Below, in pieces: positions 2,600-3,693 of a stretch of 52,323 bases of DNA. Source of the stretch: Komagataeibacter saccharivorans. GTDB taxonomy: Bacteria > Pseudomonadota > Alphaproteobacteria > Acetobacterales > Acetobacteraceae. Below the pieces are notes generated by a model. That model saw only the letters and a list, made by a program, of their open reading frames with translations. It was not told the origin of the DNA and ran no database searches. Made by a program: the position numbers and the translations under genes. Numbering within the stretch: the stretch's first letter is position 1; each line of letters starts with the position of its first letter. The DNA is taken from the NCBI RefSeq assembly GCF_003207825.1, contig NZ_NKTY01000022.1, forward strand, positions 1 through 52,323, read 5' to 3'.

Positions 2600-2678
2600 C
2601 TGCATCAAGAGTTGGGGCGACGCCCAACGCCAACCTGCCGTTCCGGGCAAGGTGGCGCTCCTGAAAGGGAGGATGTGG
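2600..2678 (+). promoter_or_regulatory. Candidate S-box-like (SAM-I-type) riboswitch before metA
   Basis: The element can fold as a multi-way junction. P1 is 2600-2606 with 2672-2678, including two G-U pairs. It is followed by the S-box hallmark AUCAAGAG (2604-2611). A short P2 hairpin pairs 2611-2616 with 2623-2628. GCCAACC (2629-2635) then leads into P3, ACCUGCC with GGGCAAGGU. AGGUGGCGCUCC follows where SAM-I has AGGUGCUAAUUCC, and a small P4 is CUCC/GGAG. Gene context (metA immediately downstream) fits SAM control. The P2 arm lacks the kink-turn and pseudoknot of classical SAM-I, and the J3/4 sequence differs, so this is either a divergent relative or a different metabolite sensor. The alignment was made by eye. 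Confidence 0.45.
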
Positions 2679-2745: not shown

Positions 2746-3693
2746 ATGCCTATCAGAATTCCGGATGATCTTCCCGCCCGCAGCACGCTTGAGGCTGAGG
2801 GCGTTATGGTACTGGGTGAGACCGATGCCACGCGTCAGGATATCCGCCCGCTGCGTATCGGCCTGCTGAACCTCATGCCCAACAAGATCTGTACCGAGAC
2901 GCAGATTGCCCGTCTGGTCGGGGCAACGCCGTTACAGGTGGAACTGACGCTGGTACGCATCAACAGCCATGTGCCGCGCAATACGCCAGCCGATCACATG
3001 ACATCGTTTTATCGGGCATGGGAAGATGTGCGTGATGAACGGTTTGACGGCTTCATCATAACAGGTGCGCCGGTTGAGCGGCTGCCTTTTCATCAGGTGA
3101 AATACTGGGACGAACTGCGGCGGATATTTGACTGGACCCAGACCCATGTGCACCGATGTTTCAATATCTGCTGGGCTGCGCAGGCGGCGGTGCATCATTT
3201 CCATGGCATGCCCAAGCATGCGCTGGCGGAAAAGGCGTTCGGTGTCTATGACCACCGCATTCTTGTTCCATCCTCACCCTATCTGGTCGGGTTTGCCGAT
3301 GACCTGTCCATTCCCGTCTCCCGCTGGACCGAGGTAAGGCGGGCCGATATTCCTGCCCGCAGTGGCATGACCATACTGGCGGAAAGTGCGGATACGGGTC
3401 TTTGCCTGCTTGATGACCCGGATCATCATGCGCTGCATATGTTCAATCATCTTGAATATGATTCCACCTCACTGGCGGATGAATATTTCCGGGATCGGGC
3501 GGCGGGTCTCGACGTTTCCGTGCCGTATAATTACTTCCCTGGCAACGATCCCGAACTGCGCCCCATAAACCGCTGGCGTGGTCATGCCCATCTGCTGGCG
3601 GGTAACTGGATCAACCAGATTTACCAGACCACGCCCTTTGACATATCAGCGATCGGTCGGGATGCAGTCGTGCGCGATAAGGTGCCTGCATAA
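2746..3693 (+). CDS. metA: Homoserine O-acyltransferase (MetA family, predicted acetyl-CoA type)
   Basis: This cytoplasmic enzyme activates L-homoserine by O-acylation, the first committed step of methionine synthesis. The 315-aa product aligns in register with E. coli MetA. It has [10 protein letters not shown] at the N-terminus, a nucleophile Cys142 in CWAAQAA, and His235/Glu237 in NHLEYD. Residue 111 is Glu ([10 protein letters not shown]) rather than the Gly of E. coli. In this family Glu111 marks acetyl-CoA use and Gly111 marks succinyl-CoA use, so the product is probably O-acetylhomoserine. I chose the ATG at 2746 because it reproduces the family numbering exactly and has a GGAGG 12 bases upstream. 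An in-frame ATG at 2710 (GGAG, spacing 9) would add 12 residues. A structured leader precedes the gene and a terminator follows it. Confidence 0.95.

Follow-up and report, generated by a model that had tools for sequence, protein, structure and literature searches.

SAM-I/IV riboswitches are described in PMC2864571 as having no internal loop in P2, and PMC6890682 assigns to them an undivided P2, a missing PK-1 and a P4, whereas SAM-IV is given P2a and P2b, PK-1 and no P4. For riboswitches operating by strand exchange, the switching sequence is most commonly located in the first helix, and the ZTP riboswitch exchanges strands via a helix other than P1 (both according to PMC10907184). Methionine genes of Alphaproteobacteria are controlled by SAM-II (SAM_alpha, RF00521), as stated in PMC4239095.

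The RNA analysed here is located ahead of metA in Komagataeibacter saccharivorans (contig NZ_NKTY01000022.1); the window refers to the whole stretch of 52,323 nt, and all features and coordinates are on the forward (+) strand. This leader shares with SAM-I (S-box) the core order of P1-P4, a methionine gene downstream and an expected repression by SAM, but is without the P2 kink-turn and PK-1 of SAM-I. With SAM-IV it shares the periphery of P5 and PK-2, but differs from it by its undivided P2, the lack of PK-1 and the presence of P4. The plain P2, the AA/U loop in P3, P4, P5 and PK-2 are all features of SAM-I/IV (RF01725), whose Rfam consensus has a Shine-Dalgarno (SD)-like aaggag near its 3' end, whereas the metA leader has its SD about 30 nt further downstream, in a hairpin of its own. 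The mechanism is predicted to be a SAM-I/IV riboswitch that probably represses metA translation at high SAM by switching through its P2 arm. Strand-exchange riboswitches usually use the first helix, whereas P2 is proposed for the metA leader; the ZTP riboswitch is a mechanistic precedent, but with another aptamer, another ligand and another direction of control.

The SAM-I/IV aptamer upstream of metA

In a scan of the window with all 4227 Rfam families, only SAM-I-IV (RF01725) exceeded its curated cut-off, at 2597-2704 with 60.2 bits against a gathering threshold of 41.1 (E 1.6e-7 for the whole window) and over model positions 1-99 of 99. The same was found with a 501-base piece, SAM-I-IV was the best match of the SAM clan, and one RF01725 match was present in the whole genome (3.35 Mb, 107 contigs). 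Weaker matches to Retro_dr1, mir-184 and other families were regarded as chance since they fell under their cut-offs. By sequence and structure, membership of the metA leader in the SAM-I/IV family is near certain, and the aptamer itself is ordinary, a known family in the expected place.

For comparison, MetA-encoding loci were collected from named genomes (397, of which the best 80 were retained), and the aptamer core was sought by regular expression, not by covariance model, in the 400 bases that precede the start. The core was present in 68 of the 80 loci, and the resulting alignment, anchored on the MetA match, contains 68 rows (the window and 67 homologues, after removal of the exact duplicate L065). 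The regular expression did not find the core in L069, L079, L092, L106, L114, L116, L117, L118, L125, L128, L134 and L135. On visual inspection, L114 has a degenerate aptamer, and L092, L106, L116, L117, L125, L134 and L135 presumably carry SAM-II, whose motif they resemble.

The initial annotation had recognised, before metA, a riboswitch of the SAM clan whose P1-P4 follow the SAM-I order, in agreement with the RF01725 match obtained from the SAM-I/IV model search it had suggested. The sequence blocks it named are all present in the order given, namely AUCAAGAG (2604-2611), GCCAACC (2629-2635), ACCUGCC (2633-2639), GGGCAAGGU (2645-2653), AGGUG (2650-2654), CUCC (2658-2661) and GAUGU (2672-2676). 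P1 is formed by 2602-2606 with 2672-2676 (GCAUC/GAUGU), with 99.7% of cells paired and 4/5 pairs invariant in the 68 rows. P2 was correctly seen as a bare hairpin without kink-turn or pseudoknot: it has 5 bp (2612-2616 with 2623-2627), a 6-nt loop (2617-2622) and no PK-1, and 3/5 of its pairs changed on both sides. From the covariance-model match and the pair counts, P3 comprises 2629-2631/2654-2656, 2634-2636/2650-2652 and 2637-2639/2646-2648, with 7/9 pairs invariant across the rows, and contains the AA/U internal loop (2632-2633/2653), which we take to be the loop contacting SAM. P4 (2658-2671, CUCCU GAAA GGGAG) was paired in 98.5% of cells, and 3/4 pairs changed on both sides, 4 of its 5 pairs being counted.

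P5 (2678-2681 with 2685-2688) was paired in 96.0% of cells. PK-2 joins the P3 loop (2642-2645) to 2696-2699 by the pair counts of the 68 rows, and by sequence alone it extends in the window to 2640-2645 with 2696-2701. Three of its pairs are invariant, and the covarying pair 2642-2699 is UA in 42, CG in 20, UG in 2 and other (unpaired) in 4 of the 68 rows. The outermost drawn pair 2641-2700 was unsupported as a conserved fifth pair, being unpaired in 51/68. Over P1-P5 and PK-2 together, standard pairs occupied 96.5% of cells against 94.2% in shuffles, and two-sided changes were seen in 11/32 pairs, compared with 6.5 in shuffles; 0/500 shuffles were as high on either count. The covariation in homologous metA leaders on which the initial annotation had made its candidate depend is therefore present.

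Its description of the element as an unclassified, trimmed S-box has to be revised, since the RNA belongs to an established family whose Rfam cut-off it passes, and the features taken as trimming are those by which SAM-I/IV is defined. The fold is not merely reduced either, because P5 and PK-2, outside the coordinates first given, form the periphery. The end of the element at 2678 was too short, leaving out P5 and the partner strand of PK-2, and the expression platform reaches the start codon at 2746.

The metA start and a P2 arm complementary to the anti-SD strand

The metA gene (homoserine O-acyltransferase, Pfam HTS) occupies 2746-3693 and starts with ATG 2746; the best score was obtained with the acetyl model (440.6, below its cut-off of 460.5). 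An upstream ATG in the same frame (2710) lacks conservation among relatives and was rejected. It is an unlikely start because all 68 rows have an NTG codon (ATG, GTG or TTG) at the position of window 2746 and the MetA model starts with the M of codon 2746, which is residue 13 of the longer frame. A GGDEF-EAL (cyclic di-GMP) gene is located immediately upstream of the riboswitch (293-2437). Within 2400-2800, no intrinsic terminator was found, and a consensus scan found no sigma-70 promoter, the consensus telling little for this lineage.

The SD, GGAGGA (2729-2734), lies 11 nt upstream of the start codon. Folding and the strand-swap test described below place it in a hairpin (2710-2716/2735-2741, 2718-2720/2731-2733 and 2722-2723/2729-2730), in which the whole GGAGG (2729-2733) is paired in the window. 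A start-proximal hairpin was predicted in 68/68 leaders when the stretch from GCCAC (2704-2708) to the start was folded alone.

It is unlikely, though conceivable, that SAM-stabilised PK-2 and P1 alone mask the ribosome-binding site as in the solved relative, with the complementarity of P2 as a by-product. PK-2 is present and covaries, its 3' strand in the window contains GGAG (2697-2700 region) at an SD-like spacing to ATG 2710, and for the SAM-I/IV RNA that was crystallised, PK-2 is reported to participate in switching. However, the MetA match starts at the M of 2746, and direct blocking by PK-2 of an SD for ATG 2710 was dropped because this ATG is unconserved. Moreover, the PK-2 3' strand of relatives is mostly CGGG or CGGA with, by eye, no SD at the proper distance, and the SD at 2729-2734 sits in the separate hairpin, not in PK-2. 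The by-product reading would also not lead one to expect that the match between P2 and the anti-SD strand is specific to each leader, as was observed in the following comparisons.

Duplex energies of a leader's own strands were compared with those of swapped strands in 31 dereplicated metA leaders (<80% identity), with the P2 segment (5' strand and loop) defined as alignment columns 15-28, which reach one base into the P2 3' strand. For the anti-SD and SD strands, own pairs averaged -15.30 against -12.52 kcal/mol for swapped pairs (0/5000 permutations; 25/31 rows better). For P2 and the anti-SD strand, the values were -14.01 and -11.61 kcal/mol (0/5000), and 27/31 rows beat their row mean. The control of P2 with the SD strand gave -7.08 against -6.80 (878/5000). 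The anti-SD strand tested against itself was own-biased too (-9.31 against -8.03, 2/5000), indicating that some of the own-bias in the swap tests comes from self-complementarity. The P2 result held at identity cut-offs of 0.90, 0.80, 0.72 and 0.66 (n = 44, 31, 15 and 9; 0, 0, 0 and 2 of 10000), and also among 27 distinct P2 strings as a test of the mean (0/10000), with the own strand being the single best partner in only 3/27.

When the aptamer was scanned in 32 overlapping windows, a single peak was observed, with z -6.5 at 2612 and -4.4, -4.2 and -2.9 in overlapping windows; z was at or below -4 in only three windows, all over P2, and ranged from -2.0 to +3.0 elsewhere. Across these leaders, the complementarity of the anti-SD strand to the P2 5' strand and loop is thus seen to be leader-specific by comparison. 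In the window, the complementarity tests and folds point to a putative antisequestor of 8 bp, in which 2614-2621 (GGGGCGAC, P2 5' strand and loop) pairs with 2712-2719 (GUCGUCCC, anti-SD).

Complementarity is strongest at the P2 loop GACGC, as would suit a kissing contact between this loop and the anti-SD strand in the SAM-bound state, with no strand exchange in the SAM-free state. We consider such a contact improbable, since the pairing continues into the P2 5' strand, segment 2606-2618 gives 7/2000 with the anti-SD strand, and in several relatives the complementary stretch has bases in common with the 5' strand of the hairpin further down, making the two mutually exclusive. That the leader is an S-box-like RNA for another ligand (SAH or homocysteine), as the initial annotation had offered, is highly improbable in view of the full-length match to the SAM-I/IV model and the invariance of 4/5 P1 and 7/9 P3 pairs in the 68 rows, the A-U pairs of P1 being those that read the sulfonium in SAM-I.

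Folding and the proposed switch at P2

For the switch through P2, a second helix is predicted in the SAM-free state, in which GUGGC (2675-2679) pairs with GCCAC (2704-2708) and excludes P1 and P5. This anti-P1/P5 helix had a probability of 0.96 in the nascent window RNA and is nearly invariant among the 68 metA leaders, where its pair 2676-2707 is UA in 64, CA in 3 and UU in 1; the 3 leaders with C have A as partner, a mismatch.

Transcripts ending before the SD strand and free of SAM formed the P2/anti-SD helix with a probability >0.3 in 53/68 leaders, the 3' end being picked for each leader to maximise this pairing. Even with the favourable 3' end, the other 15/68 did not reach 0.3; they are Caulobacteraceae, Sphingosinicella, a Pseudolabrys-like group and L076. 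With a fixed 3' end, the helix exceeded 0.3 in 21/31 leaders with their own tails against 302/930 chimeras, the mean was 0.545 against 0.256 (0/5000 permutations), and 23/31 leaders were above their chimera mean. At this fixed 3' end, the P2/anti-SD probability of the SAM-free window RNA was 0.88. Taken alone, the window gives a modest result, with 15/1000 shuffled tails doing as well by energy and 17/1000 by probability; 2/1000 random 20-mers of the window were as good by probability.

The Caulobacteraceae metA leaders L127, L129, L131 and L137 are without GCCAC and without the P2/anti-SD helix. They have GGG[U/C]GAUCCC in place of GCCAC, which could be a local hairpin competing with PK-2, and L124 is similar (GGGUGAUCC).

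When individual structures were scored for the nascent window RNA, the antisequestor had -39.9 kcal/mol and the aptamer without PK-2 or SAM -35.6 kcal/mol, a gap of about 4 kcal/mol that PK-2 and SAM would have to make up for the aptamer to persist. Over 2600-2765, the structures as drawn gave -39.9 kcal/mol for the antisequestor, -40.3 for P2 with the anti-P1 helix and the SD hairpin, and -44.1 for the aptamer with the SD hairpin. In full-length equilibrium folds, the SD hairpin was favoured with or without a bound aptamer, and the P2/anti-SD helix exceeded 0.3 in only 5/68 leaders (0.03 in the window). The located SD was unpaired with a mean probability of 0.32 in free and 0.30 in bound-constrained folds; its accessibility was higher without SAM by more than 0.1 in 7/68 leaders and lower in 1, giving no general effect of the free against the bound state. 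The z of -1.19 from folding the whole leader (2590-2712) is uninformative as a significance test. Because the SD hairpin is favoured at equilibrium in both states, the switch would have to be kinetic, and the mechanism needs a choice made during transcription and translation before refolding.

The putative mechanism would be as follows. With SAM bound, P1-P5 and PK-2 would be folded, P2 would retain its 5' strand, and the hairpin 2710-2741 would hide the SD, turning metA OFF. Without SAM, the anti-SD strand emerging during transcription would nucleate on the P2 loop, invade P2 and pair with its 5' strand, while GCCAC would pair with the strand that forms the 3' side of P1 and the 5' side of P5. 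The SD would then emerge unpaired and metA would be translated (ON). SAM-responsive repression of metA by the SAM-I/IV element is very likely. Strand exchange at the P2 arm of the metA leader is likely, with good statistical support and clear exceptions. We infer that SAM would be the ligand, that control would run in this direction and that both helices, P2/anti-SD and anti-P1, would form in the cell.

SAM-I/IV loci beyond the metA leaders

The family search gave 45 RF01725 matches, 10 of which precede metA (L001-L030 by tblastn, L041-L055 by eye). In the 35 non-metA loci, own P2 and anti-SD strands averaged -12.8 against -10.81 for swapped strands (0/5000), slightly different segments gave -13.64 against -11.88 (0/5000), and the 21 loci left after dereplication gave -14.08 against -11.90 (0/5000). 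The anti-P1 strands were compared in all 45 loci, taking for each the top match within 28 positions: GCGGC was matched by GCCGC in 11 of 11 loci, and GUGGC by GCCAC in 20, by GCCGC in 5 and by others in 9. A class-wide sample of 27 loci, with 22 parsed P2s, gave -15.11 against -12.50 (0/5000), this sample being not fully independent, as L154, L157, L159, L160, L161 and L163 precede metA and, judging by length, the contigs of L154 and L161 are those of L096 and L089. Without these six loci (n = 16), the values were -14.09 and -11.85 (1/5000), and 0/5000 after dereplication (n = 14).

A terminator-like hairpin with a U-tract was observed downstream in 11/72 loci (45 + 27). In 8/11 (L139, L140, L146, L148, L152, L158, L002 and L041), the stretch complementary to P2 shares 4-9 nt with the 5' strand of the hairpin, so that in those RNAs either the P2 helix or the hairpin can form, not both. 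L144 had no overlap, P2 of L162 was unparsed, and the hairpin of L008 lies further down. As proof of a terminator version the overlap is weakened, because foreign P2s overlap about equally often, reaching at least 4 nt on the eight hairpins in 50-97% of trials. By energy, the own P2 stands out in L152 and L002 (2/70 others as good), L139 and L140 (7/70) and L041 (9/70), and is not distinctive in L148, L146, L158 and L144 (17, 29, 43 and 48 of 70 others as good). The hairpins of L140, L144, L148 and L152 (4/11) carry GGAGG, resembling an SD, shortly upstream of an ATG and may for this reason be SD sequestors rather than terminators. The clearest terminator candidates, with no SD and start codon inside the hairpin, are L002 and L041, two SAM-I/IV copies in one genome (G077), each followed by the same hairpin and T run.

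At E 0.001, SAM-I/IV was found in 42/249 and SAM-II in 206/249 family genomes, and SAM-I/IV in 25/289 genomes of the class-wide draw. SAM-II has a pseudoknot fold unrelated to SAM-I/IV. The genome of the window also has a SAM-II (L056, G000:C73:35383-35463), located upstream of a gene that by eye resembles metZ and not before metA, so that two SAM riboswitch families occur in one pathway. Within the genus, a MetA match and SAM-I/IV were both present in the same 10/19 genomes and both absent in 9/19, as if the gene and the riboswitch were gained or lost as a unit. In other Acetobacteraceae, L024 and L044 precede a threonine aldolase-like gene (Pfam Beta_elim_lyase), which one would not expect a SAM switch to control, and by eye 12/45 family loci show that N-terminus. 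Another alphaproteobacterial genome (G532) contains four SAM-I/IV matches (L140, L151, L158 and L165).

A literature search, with the main structural paper on SAM-I/IV and all supplements outside it, found no P2-based platform for this family, though one may already be in print. On balance, we lean towards a toehold strand exchange shared by alphaproteobacterial SAM-I/IV riboswitches, in which the P2 loop and 5' strand, not P1, would be the switching sequence and the P2 loop would be the toehold for the anti-SD strand or, in some relatives, for the 5' strand of a terminator. The bare P2 would be freed for this job, and one device would exist in translational (metA) and transcriptional versions. 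If the P2 mechanism is true, it would explain how a SAM-clan riboswitch without tertiary contacts of P2 is coupled to its gene, and it would provide a large natural series on one aptamer for testing toehold strand exchange.
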